From the NCBI GenBank assembly GCA_001443495.1, contig LDXR01000032.1, positions 1 to 8,963 on the forward strand: a DNA stretch of 8,963 bases, given 5' to 3'. Made by a program: the position numbers and the translations under genes. Positions within the stretch are counted from its first letter, which is position 1. Each line of letters begins with the position of its first letter. The notes under the pieces are model-generated. The model worked only from the letters and a program-made list of their open reading frames with translations, searched no databases and was not told where the DNA came from. Shown piece by piece: positions 1 through 8,963 of this stretch. Source of the stretch: a candidate division NC10 bacterium CSP1-5 (GTDB lineage: Bacteria; Methylomirabilota; Methylomirabilia; Methylomirabilales; CSP1-5).

Positions 1-105
1 ACCTCATTACACTTGCCTACACCTACCTCCTTACTCCAAACTTCTTACTTCTTACCAGAAACTTACTTCTTGCTGTCACTCGAACCTGCCGTTTCGCGTA
101 CGGCC
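1..105. other. Non-coding edge with short direct repeats
   Basis: No gene is supported here. The decamer CTTACTTCTT occurs at 44-53 and again at 62-71, an 18-bp period, with related CTTCTTAC copies between. On the minus strand this reads as AAGAAGTAAG repeats leading to a strong Shine-Dalgarno-like TAAGGAGGT at about 24-32. An ATG on the minus strand at 7-5 could begin a further gene outside the window, but it lies rather far from that ribosome site, so I do not call it. A weak inverted repeat (GCCGT at 88-92, ACGGC at 100-104) sits just after the neighbouring gene's stop but lacks a T tract. Confidence 0.4.
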
Positions 106-900
106 TTACTTAGTGGAGTACGCGGTATTGCTCTGCAAGGTGCTTCCCGACGCCGCCACGTTGATCTGGACCGCGTTCACGCTGGCGACCGTGTTGAGGA
201 TCGACTGCGCGTTCGTCGTGACGGTGCCACCATTTTCAGCTTCTGTTTCCACTTGCAGCTTGCAGAAGCCAGCGGCGCACCGATTCTTGATCTCCACCCT
301 CGGGGTCGCGAAGGCAAGGGTGCTCGACGCGCTGGTCGCCGCGCTGGCTGAGGAATCCGCAGACGCCCAGGGCGGGGTGCTGGTAGTGTCAACCAGGGTG
401 TCAGCCGAGGCGGCGGCCGCGCCGTTCTCGGCGCTGTCAATCTCGCCGATCGCGCCCTCAGCGGAGTAGGCTGTGTTCGTCTGGGTGCCGCCGGTGCCGC
501 CGACCACGTTGACCTGGACCGCGTTCACGCTGGCCAACGTGTTGAGGATCGACTGCGCGTTTGTCGTAACCGAACTCCCGGAGTCTTCAGCTTCTGTTTC
601 CACTTTCAGCTTGCAGAAGCCAGCGGCGCACTTATTGTTGATCTTGACCGCCAGCGCTGACGCCACATCCGAGGCCGTAGCCGCGGCCGCAGACGACGCC
701 GCCCCTGCGATAAAGAGGTCGCCAGCGAACTCAGCAGAGGCGGTAGAATCTGCATTGGATGCGTCACTCACATGGTTTCCCGCATGGACGTTATCGAGCT
801 GACGGTCGGACAGCTTCCGGCCACCGGCGGCCCAACCTGGGGCAGCCACGACCGCCACGGCTGTGATCGCCATCAGCGTGATCATCAAAAATCTTTTCAT
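106..900 (-). CDS. Secreted repeat protein with GG-leader-like motif and duplicated Cys-pair domain
   Basis: The product is a 264-residue exported protein of unknown function. Residues 1-25 form a Sec signal peptide (MKRFLMITLM start, hydrophobic core, likely cleavage near GWAA). Residues 29-41 read RKLSDRQLDNVHAG, resembling the double-glycine leader of bacteriocins but placed after the signal peptide. An Ala/Ser-rich stretch (about 43-84) follows. Two near-identical units come next, at residues 85-148 and 202-264. Each holds CAAGFCKL (Cys 91/96 and 208/213), an acidic VETEAE, and VTTNAQSILNT-ASVNAVQ-NV ending in NTAYS. The units are separated by another Ala/Ser/Asp-rich linker. The start is fixed by AAGGAGGA 6 nt upstream and by the signal peptide; an in-frame start 18 codons earlier would bury the signal. 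It lies 120 nt downstream of the other motif-bearing gene and is probably co-transcribed from the sigma-54 promoter at 1481-1498. The Asn/Gln/Thr-rich repeats could suit a fibre or amyloid-like subunit; that is inference. Confidence 0.85.
   Translation of the reverse strand: MKRFLMITLMAITAVAVVAAPGWAAGGRKLSDRQLDNVHAGNHVSDASNADSTASAEFAGDLFIAGAASSAAAATASDVASALAVKINNKCAAGFCKLKVETEAEDSGSSVTTNAQSILNTLASVNAVQVNVVGGTGGTQTNTAYSAEGAIGEIDSAENGAAAASADTLVDTTSTPPWASADSSASAATSASSTLAFATPRVEIKNRCAAGFCKLQVETEAENGGTVTTNAQSILNTVASVNAVQINVAASGSTLQSNTAYSTK
109..297 (-). repeat. Internal repeat copy B (C-terminal unit)
   Basis: This encodes residues 202-264 of the secreted repeat protein. It is the second copy of a unit beginning VEIKNRCAAGFCKL and ending at the stop. 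It matches copy A over long identical DNA blocks, including a 24-nt identical stretch over the CAAGFCKL codons and another across TEAE. This points to a fairly recent tandem duplication within the gene. Confidence 0.85.
457..648 (-). repeat. Internal repeat copy A (central unit)
   Basis: This encodes residues 85-148, beginning VKINNKCAAGFCKL and ending near AYSAE. Protein differences from copy B are mostly conservative (K/Q, D/N, L/V, V/I) plus a few inserted Gly/Ser residues in the loops after TEAE and after NV. The conservation of both cysteines, TTNAQSILNT and ASVNAVQ in both copies suggests these are the structural core. Confidence 0.85.
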
Positions 901-1020: not shown

Positions 1021-1383
1021 CTACTGACTCATGGTCGAATTGAACTGCACGGTCCCGGTCGTATTGGACTGGACGACCCCTGCGGGGGATGTGCCACCCC
1101 CCTCAACCTGTGTCCTTTTCACCCAATCGTCCCATAGCCTGATCGTCATGCGGGGGCCTTCGTTCGTGGGGGACAGGCACTCGGCCTCCGCCGAGCGGCA
1201 GATCTCTGCCTCTCCGCCCGTGACGGCGTCAAGCTCTGTATCCGTCAGGCGGACCCCCTTGCCCGCCGGGGTCCTCTCCGTCGCCTGTTCCGATGAGGTG
1301 AGCGCTGCCCCAAAGGCAGGAGTGACCGTCGCCCAGGCAAACAACACGACGGCTATCGCACATGTCAGGGATTTTGCTTTCAT
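1021..1383 (-). CDS. Small secreted protein with GG-leader-like motif
   Basis: The product is a 120-residue exported protein that I do not recognise as a named family. Residues 1-26 are a Sec signal peptide (MKAKSLTCAIAVVLFAW core, likely cleavage after AFG-A). Residues 45-57 read RLTDTELDAVTGG, closely matching KLSDRQLDNVHAG of the downstream gene product and the LxxxELxxVxGG pattern of double-glycine leaders. Right after it comes a Cys pair (C62, C69), then a middle containing IRLWDDWVKR, then an Asn/Gln/Thr-rich tail VVQSNTTGTVQFNSTMSQ. The ATG at 1383 has AAGGGA 7 nt upstream; a TTG nine codons earlier is in frame but would put a polar extension before the signal. It is the first gene after the sigma-54 promoter, with a leader of roughly 85-90 nt. 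The shared motif and tail suggest it and the downstream protein are processed or assembled together. Role unknown. Confidence 0.8.
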   Translation of the reverse strand: MKAKSLTCAIAVVLFAWATVTPAFGAALTSSEQATERTPAGKGVRLTDTELDAVTGGEAEICRSAEAECLSPTNEGPRMTIRLWDDWVKRTQVEGGGTSPAGVVQSNTTGTVQFNSTMSQ

Positions 1384-1480: not shown

Positions 1481-1498
1481 TAGCAACGGGCGTGCCAC
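1481..1498 (-). promoter_or_regulatory. Sigma-54 (-24/-12) promoter for the two secreted-protein genes
   Basis: The minus strand reads GTGGCACGCCCGTTGCTA. This matches the RpoN consensus TGGCACG-N4-TTGCW at every defined base, with the invariant GG and GC separated by exactly 10 nt. Predicted transcription starts near 1470, about 87 nt before the ATG at 1383. The gene immediately upstream (stop at 1667) encodes a sigma-54 activator, which makes direct local control likely. Confidence 0.88.
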
Positions 1499-1539
1499 GA
1501 GGAGAAATTCGCGACAAGCTATTGATATTGTTAAAGACG

Positions 1540-1592
1540 GTGTGATGACAGAGATCTTTTTGCATGGCCCATCGTTCAGTCTCTGGACACAC
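1540..1592. promoter_or_regulatory. Candidate activator-binding inverted repeat (upstream enhancer)
   Basis: An interrupted inverted repeat: GTGTG-N4-CAGAGA at 1540-1554 faces TCTCTG-N2-CACAC at 1580-1592. Its centre is about 95 bp upstream of the predicted start of transcription, within the usual range for sigma-54 activator sites. Eleven base pairs match, but half-spacing differs by two bases. No other copy was found, so binding by the neighbouring regulator is inference. Confidence 0.3.
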
Positions 1593-1601
1593 GGAAGGAA
1601 C

Positions 1602-1614
1602 TGCTCGTTGAGCA
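1602..1614. promoter_or_regulatory. Candidate operator palindrome TGCTC-GTT-GAGCA
   Basis: A perfect 5-bp dyad with a 3-bp centre lies about 135 bp upstream of the predicted sigma-54 start. Location and symmetry suit a dimeric Fis-type helix-turn-helix regulator. It could equally be a small hairpin at the 3' end of the regulator transcript, whose stop codon is at 1667. Confidence 0.3.
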
Positions 1615-1666
1615 CGCATACTCTTGAGAGCTTTAACAGAGAGTTAGAAGGGTGAGATGGGAGGGA

Positions 1667-3085
1667 TCAACCTGCAAGATTTTCAGGAAACTGGACACTC
1701 CGTCCGCGACCGGGCCGCCCGGTGCGCCGCCGTGGGCGGATGCCGTACTTTTTTAGCAGGCCGTACAGGGTGGTGCGGCTGATCCCCACCTCTTCAGCCA
1801 CGCGGCTGAGATTGCCGTGGTGGAAGGTGAGGGCCTGGGCGATGAGATCCGCCTCTATCCGCCCCCGGGCATCTTTGAGCGAGAAGGGGGTCTGGATCTG
1901 GTCCTCTTCGGTCCCGGGGAGATCCAGGTCCTCGGGGGCGATGTAGGGCGCCTCGGCCATCACGACGGCCCGGCGGATCTTGTTCGACAGCTCCCGAACA
2001 TTGCCGGGCCAGGGATAGGCCTGGATCGCCTGGATCGCCTCCTTCGTAAACCCCAGGATCTGCTTCCGCATCTGCTCGCTCACCCACTTCAAGAAGAGCT
2101 GGGCCATGAGGAGGATGTCTTCGCCCCGCTCCCTGAGCGGCGGGATGTGGATCATGACCACGCCGAGCCGGTAGTAGAGGTCCTCCCGGAACCTGCCGTG
2201 CGCAATCGCCTCTTTGAGGTCCATGTTCGTCGCGGCGATGATGCGGGCATCGACCTGGATCTGCTGCCGCCCCCCGACCCGCTCGAGCGTTTGGTCCTCG
2301 AGGAATCGGAGGAGCTTGACCTGGAGCGCGAGAGGGAGTTCCCCGACCTCGTCCAGGAAGAGCGTCCCCCCCTGGGCGTACTCTACCTTCCCTTTCTTTT
2401 GCTGGATGGCACCGGTAAAGGCCCCCCGCTCGTGGCCGAACAGCTCGGACTCGAGGAGGGTCTCGGGGATCGCCCCGCAGTTGATGGTGACGAAGGGGCC
2501 CGCCTTTCTGAGACTCCGCTCGTGGATGGCCTTCGCCGTGAGTTCCTTCCCGGTGCCACTTTCGCCGATGACCAGGACAGGGACGTCGGTGGTGGCCACC
2601 TTGCGGATGGCCTCGAAGACCCGCCGGATCCCCTCACTCGTCCCGATCATCTCCTCCTCCTCGGCCTCGGTCCCTGCGGCGAGGGTCCGCCGCTCGTGCT
2701 CCAGCTCGGCGATCCAGCAGGCCCGCCGCATGACGAGTCTGAGGAGGTCGAGGTCCACGGGCTTGCTGAGGAAGTCGTATGCCCCGTAGCCCACGGCCCG
2801 GACGGCGTATTGCCGGTCCCCGTAGCCGGTGCAGACAATGACCTTGCCGGTGCCGCCCTCCTTCCGGAAGTCCTGCAGCCACCGGAGCCCCCCTTCGGGG
2901 TCGTTCGGGTGTGGCGGCAGGCCCAGATCCAGGAGGACAAGGGCGGGATGTTCCGCGCGGGCGATGGTGTGCGCGGTTGTTGCGTCCCCGGCGGGCAGCA
3001 GGCTGAACTCATCCTTCAGTGCCCACTCGAGCTGCGTGCGGGTCACGTCGTCATTTTCAATGAGGAGGACCTTGGGCCGAGCCAT
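1667..3085 (-). CDS. PrsR-like sigma-54-dependent response regulator (NtrC family)
   Basis: This 472-residue cytoplasmic activator opens sigma-54 promoters by ATP hydrolysis when phosphorylated. The receiver domain (about 5-125) has acidic E10/D12, phospho-acceptor D53 in LLDLGLPP, T86 and K108 (SKPVDLDLLRL). The AAA+ domain (about 147-385) has Walker A GESGTGKE (174-181), the sigma-54 loop GAFTGA (221-226), Walker B TLFLDE (241-246) and WPGNVREL (359-366). A Fis-type HTH lies at about 424-448 and a basic tail RPRRRTGRPGRGR follows. The DLGLPP, RAVGYGAYDF and KPVDLDLLRL blocks are characteristic of PrsR, the PEP-CTERM-associated regulator family (recalled, not searched). It starts 3 bp after the kinase stop; its GGGGGTG ribosome site overlaps that stop codon, indicating translational coupling. 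All catalytic residues appear intact. The probable target is the promoter at 1481-1498. No PEP-CTERM protein is present in the window, so its regulon here may differ. Confidence 0.93.
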   Translation of the reverse strand: MARPKVLLIENDDVTRTQLEWALKDEFSLLPAGDATTAHTIARAEHPALVLLDLGLPPHPNDPEGGLRWLQDFRKEGGTGKVIVCTGYGDRQYAVRAVGYGAYDFLSKPVDLDLLRLVMRRACWIAELEHERRTLAAGTEAEEEEMIGTSEGIRRVFEAIRKVATTDVPVLVIGESGTGKELTAKAIHERSLRKAGPFVTINCGAIPETLLESELFGHERGAFTGAIQQKKGKVEYAQGGTLFLDEVGELPLALQVKLLRFLEDQTLERVGGRQQIQVDARIIAATNMDLKEAIAHGRFREDLYYRLGVVMIHIPPLRERGEDILLMAQLFLKWVSEQMRKQILGFTKEAIQAIQAYPWPGNVRELSNKIRRAVVMAEAPYIAPEDLDLPGTEEDQIQTPFSLKDARGRIEADLIAQALTFHHGNLSRVAEEVGISRTTLYGLLKKYGIRPRRRTGRPGRGRSVQFPENLAG

Positions 3086-3088
3086 ACT

Positions 3089-4201
3089 TCACCCCCTTTC
3101 GGGTCCCGGGAGGACCTGTACCCCTCCCTGCGGTTCGGGAAGGATAATGGTCACCCTGGTGCCCTCTCCATCTCCCCGGTTCGTCACCTGGATGCTGCCC
3201 CCGTGGGCCTCGACGATGACTTTCGCGTGATACAGCCCGAGCCCCAGACCGCGGGCTTTGGTCGTCCGGAACGGCCGGAACAGGGATCTCTCGAGGTAGT
3301 CTTGAGGAATGCCGGGCCCCGTATCCTCAATGACCAGGCAGATCTGCCCCTTGCCGGGGCCGCGTTGGCCAATCACAGAGACGTGCCCCCGCGTCTCGAT
3401 GGCCTCGTAGGCGTTGAGCAACAGGTTAAAGAACACCCGCTGCATCTCCGCGATATCCACCTCGACGTGGAGAACCCCTTCCAGCCCCCGGACTTCGGTT
3501 GCCTCGACCTCGGCGCGCCGACCCGCCCTGGCCAGCAGGTCCAGAGCGGAATCGATCAGTTCCCCCAGGGCAGCAGGCTGCCGGTGCAGGGTGATCCGGG
3601 GTGGGACCCCGGACAATTTTTCGATCAGGTACTTCATCTTGCCGGCCACGTCCTCCAGGGCCCGCACCGCGTCCTGCCGGAAGGCCGGATCGTCGAGGTG
3701 CCCTCTGAAATTCCGGATGGTGAGGGAAAGGGTATTGCTGAGGTTTCTGAGATCATGGGCCACCAACGAGGCCACGTGCCCAAAAGCGGCCATCTCCTGC
3801 TTCTCCCCGAGCTGCTCCAACAGCCGGCGCTCCATCTCGCGCTGCCTCCGGATATCGCGGAGGAGGAAGATCGTCGTGGCCTGGGCGCCAGGCTCGCCCG
3901 TCTGGCCTACCGAGACCGAGACCTCTCGCCGTTCGCCCGACTTGGTCCGCACGAGGCAGTGATACCGCCTGAGGGCCCACGGGTCCACTCCCCGTGCCTT
4001 CGCAATCGCCGTGAGCTCCTCCCGAGCGATCAACTGGTCGAGTCGCATCCCCTGAAGCTCCTCTGCCGTCCATCCGGAGATCTCTGCCATTTCATCGTTG
4101 GCCCAACGGATGGTATTCATCGCTTCAGTGATCAGGAGTCCCTCCGGGAGCCGCGCGAAAATTCCGAAATATTCCACATCGGGCAACGGATCATGACCCA
4201 T
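3089..4201 (-). CDS. PAS-domain sensor histidine kinase, PrsK-like catalytic core
   Basis: This 370-residue kinase is predicted to phosphorylate the adjacent response regulator. No transmembrane segment is visible, so it should be cytoplasmic. A PAS domain occupies about residues 10-116 (EGLLITEAMNTIRWANDEM, then ISGWTAEELQG). A short linker (118-140) leads to the H box LVAHDLRNL with H149. The ATPase domain carries the N box FFNLLLNAYEAI (N259, N263), G1 DTGPGIP (293-299), F box LFRPFRTTK (307-315) and G2 GLGLGLYHAK (318-327). The AHDLRNL...LSL...RN and DDPAFRQD...KM segments resemble PrsK of PEP-CTERM loci. Classical PrsK is larger, with an N-terminal membrane region and GAF domain, which are absent here. 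The ATG has AAAGG 6 nt upstream. A possible sigma-54 site lies directly upstream (4225-4241). The signal sensed is unknown. Confidence 0.92.
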   Translation of the reverse strand: MGHDPLPDVEYFGIFARLPEGLLITEAMNTIRWANDEMAEISGWTAEELQGMRLDQLIAREELTAIAKARGVDPWALRRYHCLVRTKSGERREVSVSVGQTGEPGAQATTIFLLRDIRRQREMERRLLEQLGEKQEMAAFGHVASLVAHDLRNLSNTLSLTIRNFRGHLDDPAFRQDAVRALEDVAGKMKYLIEKLSGVPPRITLHRQPAALGELIDSALDLLARAGRRAEVEATEVRGLEGVLHVEVDIAEMQRVFFNLLLNAYEAIETRGHVSVIGQRGPGKGQICLVIEDTGPGIPQDYLERSLFRPFRTTKARGLGLGLYHAKVIVEAHGGSIQVTNRGDGEGTRVTIILPEPQGGVQVLPGPERG

Positions 4202-6347: not shown

Positions 6348-7130
6348 CTAGGTGCCAAAGCGACGCTTCCGCTGCTGATAGCTGCGGATGGCGCGGAGGA
6401 GATCGATCTTGCGAAAGGCGGGCCAGTAGGCGTCGCAGAAATAGAACTCGCTATAGGCACTCTGCCAGAGGAGAAAACCAGAGCAGCGGAGCTCTCCGCT
6501 CGTGCGAATGATCAAGTCGGGATCCGGCAAGTCATATGTGTAGAGGTACTTGCCAATGTCCTCGGGAGTGATCTCTTCGGCGATACGGCTAAGCGACATG
6601 CCGCATTTGCCTCGCTCGCGCAAGAGTAGGCGGACGGCATCCGTGATCTCCTGCCGGCCCCCGTATCCCAGCGCCAGATTGAGATAAAAACGATCGTGCT
6701 CCCGTGTCGCTTCTTCAGCAATGCTGATGGCTTCCTGAAGTGGGGCCGGAAGAAGATCGAGTCGCCCGACTGCTCGGATGTGGACCTCTTTCTCGTGGAT
6801 CTTCGGATCGACGGCTACCGCCAGGATCTTGGCCTCGATGAGTGCGAGGAGTCCGTTGAGTTCGCCCGGGGGTCGCGTAAGATTTTCCGTCGAGAGGGCA
6901 AACAGGGTCGTGATTCGGATCTCGAGTTCTTCCAGCCAATCCATTACCTCCTCGAGCTTATCAGCGCCGATGCGGTGTCCGGCTAATGGATCGTCCAACC
7001 CACGCTCTCGTGCATACCGACGATTCCCGTCAAGGATAAGACCGATATGACGGGGCATGGGTCCCCGTCTCACCTCTCGGAGGAGGCGCCGCTCGTACAG
7101 TCGATACAGAGGGGAGAGAATATAAAACAT
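6348..7130 (-). CDS. Cis-prenyltransferase (polyprenyl diphosphate synthase, UppS/Rv1086-like)
   Basis: This 260-residue cytoplasmic enzyme adds isopentenyl diphosphate units in cis to an allylic diphosphate, giving a lipid carrier precursor. Signature parts are intact: catalytic D34 in LILDGNRRYA, STEN (80-83), NLALGYGGR (151-159), and LPDPDLIIRTSGExR (201-215) with SGFLLWQSAYSE (217-228) and WPAFRKIDLLRA. The N-terminal SPLYRLYERRL and the C-terminal block resemble the actinobacterial Rv1086 short-chain branch more than E. coli UppS, and DGNRR rather than DGNGR fits that. Residue 78, equivalent by motif to the E. coli chain-length position A69 (YAFSSEN), is Ala here (FALSTEN), whereas I recall Leu in Rv1086, so a longer product is possible. 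The ATG lies one base after the phosphatase stop (TAGCATG) and has no clear ribosome site, implying coupling. An internal ATG at 7058 would drop the LYRLYE segment. Confidence 0.93.
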   Translation of the reverse strand: MFYILSPLYRLYERRLLREVRRGPMPRHIGLILDGNRRYARERGLDDPLAGHRIGADKLEEVMDWLEELEIRITTLFALSTENLTRPPGELNGLLALIEAKILAVAVDPKIHEKEVHIRAVGRLDLLPAPLQEAISIAEEATREHDRFYLNLALGYGGRQEITDAVRLLLRERGKCGMSLSRIAEEITPEDIGKYLYTYDLPDPDLIIRTSGELRCSGFLLWQSAYSEFYFCDAYWPAFRKIDLLRAIRSYQQRKRRFGT

Positions 7131-7131
7131 G

Positions 7132-8424
7132 CTATTGAGTTTTCAGGATCGTAAAGTAGTCCTTGATACGCCCGCTATTATCAATAAAGGAGGCCTCCAG
7201 CTTGTCTCCAACGATATGCAGCGCCAACGATCCCAGCTCGCTGAACGAAATATACATGACCGGGTGGTCCAAAGAACCCCCGCCGGTCTTACCAGAACTA
7301 CCCGCCACTACGTATACGGCACCCTTGGATCTCTTCATATAGGGCTTATCGCCGTTTCCACGCCCGTCGCCATTGTCTAGAAGCATGCCCTTGGTCAAGG
7401 TATCGGAGGTGCCGTAATGCCCATGCAGTTGGAACGACCGCTCGTAGGAGTGACTATGCCCGCTCAGAACGAGGTCTACCCCATATGATTCCAAAATCGG
7501 CAAAACATTTTTTCTCATCACCATAAGGCCGCGCTCACGATCGGAGTCATGAGAACCTTTTGAGTACGGTGGGTGATGCCAGTAGGCGATGATCCATTTT
7601 TGGGTGGTCGCCGCCAAATCCTTCTGCAGCCACGTCAGCATCGACCCCCCCGGAGAGCGATCACTATCGTGCGAATCCAGGCAAATGAAATGAACGTTTG
7701 CGTAATCAAATGAATAATACGCCTCGGTACCGGAAGGCACACCTCCTGCCTCCCCCCGCCTGGGCAAGGTGAAGATGTCATAATAGGGCCCGCTTTGCGT
7801 ACCAGAGTCGGCGCTGTGTCCATCGTGATTCCCCAGAGTGGGCCAAAGAACTGTTTGCCTCAATAGGGATGGGTACATTTCGAATACAGCATTCTGATAT
7901 TCACGATCAGTACCGTCGCGATACGCGTTATCACCCAGCATCAACCACACATGTGTATACGTGTCACCCTTCGCCGCTAAGTACCCATCCCGCACAGCTT
8001 TTGCGTTTCTATTCGCGGTGCCAGAGTCTCCAATCACCCATACTCGCACTGGTTTGTCTACCCCGGGTCTCGGTGGGGTAACAAAAAAATGTTCGGCATC
8101 ACCGCCCGCTGAGGTTGCAGTGGTGGAGCCGATGGCATAATAGTATGTCGTATCGGGTGTGAGCCCCGTGAGCTGAACCTCGTGTTCCGTCCTCAACGTG
8201 GCCTGATCGACTTGGGAGGTCAGCTTGCCCTGCGCCGGGCCGTAGCTGACCCGGCTATCGGTAGCCACGTCCGTCCGCCACCTCACAACAATGCTGCTGG
8301 GAGTACTAATCTGTAAATATGGCCCCCGAGTAACTGTCAGACCACTTGCAGAGAAGCTAAAAAACAAAGCACAGAACGAGGTGCAGAACCCGGCAACTAC
8401 CTTGGAAAGAATACGTCTAGACAT
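7132..8424 (-). CDS. Exported purple-acid-phosphatase-like metallophosphoesterase
   Basis: The 430-residue product is an exported phosphoesterase. Residues 1-28 are a signal peptide. An N-terminal FN3-like/PAP N-domain follows at about 30-117 (TRGPYLQISTPSSIVVRWRT, then LTGLTPDTTYYYAIGS). The calcineurin-like domain spans about 126-410. Metal-binding motifs are in the standard order: GDSG (D133), GDNAY (D165, Y168), GNHD (199-201), WHHPPYS (H283/H284) and GHSHSYER (H323, H325). These match the seven-ligand dimetal site of purple acid phosphatases, so it should hydrolyse phosphate esters outside the cytoplasm; the substrate is unknown. It lies 57 nt after the CBM96-type gene and 1 bp before the prenyltransferase. 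No strong ribosome site precedes the ATG; the start is chosen for the signal peptide. Sampled GC is lower than in the regulator gene. Compared with plant PAPs the C-terminal end is short. Confidence 0.92.
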   Translation of the reverse strand: MSRRILSKVVAGFCTSFCALFFSFSASGLTVTRGPYLQISTPSSIVVRWRTDVATDSRVSYGPAQGKLTSQVDQATLRTEHEVQLTGLTPDTTYYYAIGSTTATSAGGDAEHFFVTPPRPGVDKPVRVWVIGDSGTANRNAKAVRDGYLAAKGDTYTHVWLMLGDNAYRDGTDREYQNAVFEMYPSLLRQTVLWPTLGNHDGHSADSGTQSGPYYDIFTLPRRGEAGGVPSGTEAYYSFDYANVHFICLDSHDSDRSPGGSMLTWLQKDLAATTQKWIIAYWHHPPYSKGSHDSDRERGLMVMRKNVLPILESYGVDLVLSGHSHSYERSFQLHGHYGTSDTLTKGMLLDNGDGRGNGDKPYMKRSKGAVYVVAGSSGKTGGGSLDHPVMYISFSELGSLALHIVGDKLEASFIDNSGRIKDYFTILKTQ

Positions 8425-8481: not shown

Positions 8482-8963
8482 TCAATTTGTAGTAATAATC
8501 AGTAGTGGCGGATTAATCACGTCTTCGCGGGAGCGATAATAGACGCCATTGCTATTATTCGAATCGATGGCAAAGCTGTAGGTTCCATTGCCAGGAATCG
8601 CCGCGGTCACATCGAGTTCGACAATATTGCCCACAGCCACTGCCCCCAACGCAGCCAGAGCTGGCCCATCAATGGCCGGGCGGGTATTATAGGTCACCGT
8701 CTTCTCGCCCCAGCTATTGTTGGATATCGAGTGAATCGTCCCCCCAAATACGCTCGCATCGACCACCTCCAGCCTGAGGCGGGCAGACTGCACAGCCCCA
8801 CTGAGTCCGGTCACGTTGAACCGCAGGTACGCAATCTTGGTGGGTGAGCTGTCTACCTGAAGCGTCGTGCGAGATCCATAATTAGTATTGGGGCTATTAG
8901 TGTTTACGTATGTATCCGCCACGGGAGTAAAGGTTACCTGGGTCCCTCCGCCACCTCCCACCG
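8482..8963 (-). CDS. Secreted DNRLRE/CBM96-domain protein, 5' end outside window
   Basis: Only the last 160 or so codons are present; the frame stays open to the window edge, and the GTG at 8961 is more likely an internal Val than a start. A Gly-rich linker (GGGGG) leads into one complete domain. It begins TFTPVADTYVNTN and continues with NYGSRTTLQVDSSPTKIAYLRF. Next come SARLRLEVV and NNSWGEKTVTYNTRPA, and it ends with ELDVTAAI and YSFAID. This order is typical of DNRLRE (CBM96-type) beta-sandwich domains, which occur on secreted polysaccharide-active or surface proteins. The domain probably attaches an upstream catalytic or structural region to glycan; the rest of the protein is not visible. 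It ends 57 nt before the phosphatase gene. In some bacteria DNRLRE and phosphoesterase domains are fused (recalled); here the phosphatase has its own signal peptide, so they are separate genes. Confidence 0.85.
   Translation of the reverse strand, partial: VGGGGGTQVTFTPVADTYVNTNSPNTNYGSRTTLQVDSSPTKIAYLRFNVTGLSGAVQSARLRLEVVDASVFGGTIHSISNNSWGEKTVTYNTRPAIDGPALAALGAVAVGNIVELDVTAAIPGNGTYSFAIDSNNSNGVYYRSREDVINPPLLIITTN

Follow-up and report, generated by a model that had tools for sequence, protein, structure and literature searches.

Where a near-perfect sigma-54 promoter stands between the gene of a sigma-54 activator and genes of exported proteins, the question arises of what the promoter serves and which regulator works it. 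Such an arrangement occurs in the stretch of DNA analysed here (the window), which spans all 8963 bp of contig C32 in the genome (G000; 2.77 Mb, 40 contigs) of the candidate division NC10 bacterium CSP1-5, phylum Methylomirabilota. Judging from sequence comparison, we consider it likely that the site serves as sigma-54 promoter to a Fap-like surface-fibre locus of the functional-amyloid type, switched by a PAS-kinase/PrsR-type pair. The promoter and the regulatory genes are as follows.

1483..1497, minus strand: predicted sigma-54 (-24/-12) promoter TGGCACGCCCGTTGC, a consensus match whose position is kept in two related loci (L170 and L092)
1498..1666, minus strand: intergenic region of 169 bp, expected to hold the activator's binding site
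1667..3085, minus strand: PrsR-type response regulator / sigma-54 activator, 472 aa (TIGR02915; Pfam Response_reg, Sigma54_activat, HTH_8)
3089..4201, minus strand: PAS-histidine kinase, 370 aa (partial match to TIGR02916)

Read on the minus strand at 1497..1483, TGGCACGCCCGTTGC has no mismatch to either TGGCACNNNNNTTGC or TGGCACGNNNNTTGC and is the sole exact sigma-54 core match in the window. The site is intergenic, shows GG-N10-GC spacing with a TGGCAC-N5-TTGC core, and lies ahead of a same-strand gene, 169 bp from the stop of the PrsR-type gene (1667) and 99 bp from ATG 1383; transcription is predicted to start ~12 nt downstream, around 1471. Because the extended consensus has a flanking Y where this site has G, "near-perfect" is the fitting word for it. 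The preliminary description, which had the site matching the core at all defined bases and lying 169 bp beyond the stop of a GAFTGA-containing activator (GAFTGA is at residue 221), thus holds on both points, while two of its statements need amending: the site does point at the next gene, but the strand (minus) had been omitted, and there are indeed two secreted-protein genes, but they start at ATG 1383 and ATG 900, each with a plausible ribosome-binding site ahead of it, and not at the upstream starts of the longer open reading frames. The genome encodes RpoN (TIGR02395, 438.7 bits), and the 11-base core is matched exactly 15 times in its 2.77 Mb (~2 expected from base composition) and with at most one mismatch 113 times, against 49 for a reversed control pattern. 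Within 1498..1666, the search for an activator binding site gave no candidate better than chance, and CTTTAACA at 1536..1529 is a weak lead only. Likewise, no upstream motif shared by the window, L170, and L092 rose above shuffles; TTTNACA precedes the -24 elements of the three loci by 31, 43, and 63 nt, and as this spelling was picked after sighting, we make no claim on it.

The regulator combines a receiver domain with D53, an AAA+ domain with GAFTGA, and a Fis-type HTH; at 564.6 bits, it is the only protein of its genome to exceed the TIGR02915 cut-off (502.6). The same genome encodes at least ten further regulators of the sigma-54 type. The kinase, in which no transmembrane segment was seen and whose C-terminal half is PrsK-like, scores 163.6 bits against TIGR02916 (PrsK; cut-off 300), with the match covering profile positions 458-679 only, i.e., the C-terminal third. 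Further along, the window holds genes for an UppS-like prenyltransferase (6348-7130) and a purple-acid-phosphatase-type metallophosphoesterase (7132-8424), the latter adjoining a gene for a CBM96/DNRLRE-domain protein (8482-8961) that is cut by the contig end.

On the other side of the promoter lie the two exported-protein genes, with these features.

1021..1383, minus strand: exported protein of 120 aa with a Sec signal, encoded by the first gene after the promoter
1213..1248, minus strand: double-glycine-type motif LTDTELDAVTGG, residues 46-57 of the 120-aa protein
106..900, minus strand: 264-aa exported protein with Q/N-containing repeats, a candidate fibre subunit
778..813, minus strand: motif LSDRQLDNVHAG, residues 30-41 of the 264-aa protein
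463..648, minus strand: repeat 1 of the 264-aa protein, VKINNKCAAGFCKL...NTAYS
112..297, minus strand: repeat 2 of the 264-aa protein, VEIKNRCAAGFCKL...NTAYS

Both proteins carry signal peptides, and LTDTELDAVTGG and LSDRQLDNVHAG come after the signal. The 264-aa protein contains two imperfect repeats of ~62 residues (identity at 46 of 64 aligned positions); it had no convincing homologue in 98 relatives and none in the genome_contigs database, and its structure prediction was uninformative (pLDDT 37.7). Fap family models, including the FapB and FapC HMMs, matched neither exported protein. Over 99 genomes, exact matches to the motif pattern occurred only in the window's two genes and one-mismatch matches were scattered, using a pattern that is too strict for the versions of the motif found in L170 and on contig C36, described below.

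Comparison across the phylum supports the view that regulator, promoter, and exported-protein gene belong together. A regulator profile search separated three proteins (961, 954, and 928 bits for the window, G002:C162, and G063) from the rest (at most 597), and this subclade occurs in 3 of 95 phylum genomes, at the window, L170 (G002:C162), and L092 (G063). Its members are 62-76% identical and their surroundings differ. In each case the regulator gene is followed on its own strand by an exact sigma-54 site, at a distance from the stop of 169 bp in the window, 209 bp in L170 (11281..11267), and 598 bp in L092 (12816), compared to none of the 14 other PrsR-type regulators of the phylum, for which mostly ~1.5 kb of flank, and less than 400 bp in two cases, was examined (Fisher p = 0.0015). 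Behind the site, each of the three loci has a small signal-peptide gene: RVI(L/I)WDE is common to the G063 peptide (49 aa) and the 99-aa G002 protein (E = 8e-6, two-sequence comparison), while the resemblance of the window's 120-aa protein is looser, with weak similarity to the 99-aa protein, its equivalent by place in L170 (E = 1e-4, two-sequence comparison). Hence, homologous loci without site and regulator, named beforehand as what would speak against the promoter, are the opposite of what was found, and the proposed search of related genomes recovered the exact site before a small signal-peptide gene in both L170 and L092. The earlier idea that the regulator pair switches on the two exported proteins gains from this order being kept in three of three loci, but the target is probably larger.

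The kinase and regulator, previously treated as a unit, do adjoin in the window and in L092, but not in L170. Kinase orthologues were found in 3 of 95 phylum genomes, i.e., the window's own (G000), G002 (96%), and G063 (46%), and that of G002 sits on a 3588-bp contig (C133). There, genes for an XRE-type regulator-like protein and an ImmA/IrrE-like metallopeptidase adjoin it (L091:2101-3164), so the surroundings upstream of this kinase are unlike those in the window. In the L170 regulator (L170:11491-12885), the phospho-acceptor Asp is replaced by Glu, and its gene has no kinase gene as a neighbour, while the Asp and the kinase are both kept in the window and G063; with these two features, the L170 protein looks as if it might be constitutively active.

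What such a promoter may serve can be read from L170, where the locus is complete. Its order is the PrsR-like regulator (76% identical to that of the window), the sigma-54 site TGGCACACCCCTTGC, genes for 99-aa, 261-aa, and 244-aa proteins, a C39 peptidase, a 164-aa protein, and a FapF-like channel, beyond which follow homologues of ssuA, cbiX, ubiE, and ubiA (named by eye from sequence). The small exported 99-aa protein carries LSDQDLAAVSG, of the LSDxxL..VxG type, and the 164-aa protein, the second motif protein of the locus, carries LSDAELEGIRGG. Three NxxSGxMNNQAN repeats in the 261-aa protein fit the published FapC repeat, GN-X-G-N-X2-AG-X2-NQQ-X-N (PMC5557850), and the 244-aa protein is FapB-like (66.1 bits), the FapB and FapC relatives of L170 being remote homologues at 66 and 46 bits. 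The same holds for the peptidase (FapD, 151.4 bits against an equivalog cut-off of 330) and the outer-membrane channel (FapF, 162.1 bits against an equivalog cut-off of 700), both remote homologues. By these homologies, the operon behind the L170 site is a putative Fap-like fibre-export operon.

In the window's genome, the FapD-like and FapF-like genes are found on C36 (6431 bp), not on the window contig. C36 reads ubiA-ubiE-cbiX-ssuA-FapF-like-C39-198-aa exported-exported-contig end, syntenic with L170, and C32, in the same reading direction, ends with the regulator, the promoter, and the two exported-protein genes. Its channel scores 138 bits as FapF (equivalog cut-off 700) and 70 as FilC, and its peptidase 146 bits as FilB and 115 as FapD (equivalog cut-off 330); the C39 proteins of C36 and L170 both keep the Cys, His, and Asp motifs. 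The 198-aa exported protein has VLSDQELDAT and the terminal exported protein LNDTQLAEVYGG, and the latter shows weak similarity to the 264-aa protein of the window. Since C36 carries the FapD/FapF-like half in an L170-type neighbourhood, the window probably represents the front half of a locus of this kind, and the simplest reading is that C36 follows the left end of the window to form one locus. The ends of C32 and C36 share no overlap, and synteny is therefore what the proposed join rests on. At the contig end itself (window 1-105), repeats of the AAGAAGTAAG type on the minus strand may explain why the assembly broke. As another partner for C36, we considered a regulator gene that is cut where contig C19 begins; it was rejected, as it runs into C19 and has no Fap-like gene in the next 9 kb. 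In the phylum search, the only genomes with C39 relatives were the two kinase-carrying ones of the same genus; none was found in G063, despite its regulator, site, and 49-aa exported peptide.

These parts suggest a route from signal to surface. The PAS-histidine kinase would phosphorylate the adjoining PrsR-type activator at D53, and the activator would drive RNA polymerase with sigma-54 at 1497..1483. The predicted transcript would cover the genes for the 120-aa and 264-aa proteins and probably run on into those of C36, i.e., two further exported proteins, a periplasmic C39 peptidase (FapD/FilB-like), and the FapF-like outer-membrane channel. The exported proteins would pass the inner membrane via Sec, the LSD/LTDxxLxxVxGG-type motif would then mark them for the C39 peptidase, and the repeat-bearing subunits might exit by way of the channel and assemble into surface fibres. 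GG is the classical cleavage site of C39 peptidases (double-glycine leaders), and FapD-type peptidases are periplasmic. As the motif resembles C39-cut leaders and comes after Sec signals, cleavage by a peptidase of this placement is a concrete prediction and not a result. Tentatively, we propose that a PrsR-type branch was taken over for Fap-like fibre control and that the FapD-like peptidase cuts Sec-exported proteins at LSDxELxxVxGG, a combination that seems to us possible rather than probable.

Other readings of the site and its genes differ in how much of this they would change. A chance match is hardly credible at all: ~0.01 exact matches are expected per window (one was present in 2 of 200 dinucleotide shuffles), strand, spacing, and place are correct, and the site is conserved in two further loci. 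It is a more serious, though unlikely, alternative that the promoter of the exported genes is real but worked by a different activator than the neighbouring PrsR-type pair. With at least ten other sigma-54-type regulators encoded and no binding site found, we infer activation of 1497..1483 by the adjoining regulator from position and conservation, and the genome's 14 further exact sigma-54 sites also leave room for another activator; against this stands the joint occurrence of regulator and site in three of three subclade loci and none of 14 others, at 62-76% identity and in differing surroundings. Rather improbably, the exported proteins might be double-glycine peptides (bacteriocin-like or signalling) that are matured by a periplasmic C39 peptidase and are not fibre parts, for which GG is the classical cut site and LTDTELDAVTGG is bacteriocin-leader-like, albeit at 12.7 bits against TIGR01847, below its cut-off of 15.7. 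However, the proteins also bear a Sec signal, their partner genes resemble those of FapF and FapB/FapC and include no ABC exporter, and the 264-aa protein is long and repetitive.

The regulator's family raises a further reading, in which the locus is an ordinary PrsK/PrsR PEP-CTERM (exosortase A) regulon. Upstream of PEP-CTERM genes, Haft et al. (2006) described a site associated with PrsR together with a sigma-54 motif (PMC1569441), and the window is similar in having a PrsR-type activator passing the TIGR02915 cut-off, a kinase, and a sigma-54 motif ~100 bp before an exported-protein gene. Yet the kinase falls below the PrsK cut-off and has no PrsK N-terminal part, the exported proteins end in ...TAYSTK and ...STMSQ with no PEP-CTERM tail, and no XrtA/EpsH exosortase was found in the window's genome, which has instead two exosortases over the XrtH cut-off and far below that of XrtA. 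Further, the search for PrsR motif 1 (TGTCGN6TTTACA, derived here from five Massilia PEP-CTERM promoters, L161-L165) 32-92 nt upstream of the -24 element gave a best score of 4.96 bits, compared to 21-24 bits for true sites (p = 0.11), so that the complete motif is absent at the expected spacing. With the partial kinase, XrtH in place of XrtA, no tail, and no motif 1, the canonical PEP-CTERM regulon was rejected, and we regard this reading in general as highly improbable. In the Massilia genome, the five PEP-CTERM genes each follow TGTCGN6TTTACA and a sigma-54 site, which restates the published motif 1. The two XrtH genes of G000:C6 (L121:7790-10171 and L122:5480-7936) each lie beside an S8-type serine protease gene, and these proteases have a VPDLSLIG-type C-terminal tail.

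For the preferred reading, a sigma-54-controlled Fap-like locus, the closest experimental parallel is fapA-E of Pseudomonas fluorescens PF07, by analogy of arrangement: a -24/-12 promoter mapped there by 5'-RACE needs RpoN and BrfA, a Fis-type sigma-54 activator encoded beside the operon (PMC9207406). Shared with Fap (fapABCDEF, Pseudomonas) are the sigma-54 promoter before the operon with an adjoining Fis-type activator and, in the congener, repeat proteins, a periplasmic C39 peptidase, and a FapF-like channel, the last two also on C36. In contrast, a PrsR-type response regulator and PAS kinase stand here in the place of BrfA, the homologies are all remote and far below equivalog cut-offs, the phylum is Methylomirabilota, and the window's 264-aa protein has other repeats than FapB/FapC and no HMM match. 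Double-glycine-type motifs also occur here, while the Fap proteins of Pseudomonas are reported to lack canonical C39 sequences; PMC5557850 and PMC6173800 state this and give the FapD substrate as unknown. The putative Fil pilus (FilB C39, FilC; NCBIfam) is similar too, in that the C36 peptidase is best as FilB and its barrel also matches FilC, but both scores are below the cut-offs. C39/double-glycine processing by peptidase-containing ABC transporters shares the C39 fold with Cys, His, and Asp and the LSxxELxxVxGG-type motif on putative substrates, whereas here the peptidase is stand-alone and Sec-exported and the motif comes after a Sec signal peptide.

Finding a Fap-like locus beyond Proteobacteria is no novelty in kind, since adjacent fapD and fapF homologues were reported from another five phyla in 2018 (PMC6173800). 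Two features are new here: at a Fap-like locus, the regulator is of the PrsR type and has a conserved sigma-54 site; and next to a FapD-like peptidase, exported proteins bear double-glycine-type motifs behind their Sec signals. Our literature search returned no paper that names both FapF and PrsR, or both Methylomirabilota and functional amyloid. If the proposed cleavage is true, candidates for the natural substrates of FapD-type peptidases could be read from sequence, namely the motif proteins. As five exported proteins with double-glycine-type motifs are encoded within or next to Fap-like loci that have a FapD-like peptidase, the FapD substrate question is open to a simple cleavage assay. 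The proposed locus would also offer a reason for a PrsR-type regulator in a genome where XrtA was not found. Together with PF07, it suggests that Fap-like loci repeatedly come under sigma-54 control by an adjoining activator, in two distant phyla and with a different activator in each.
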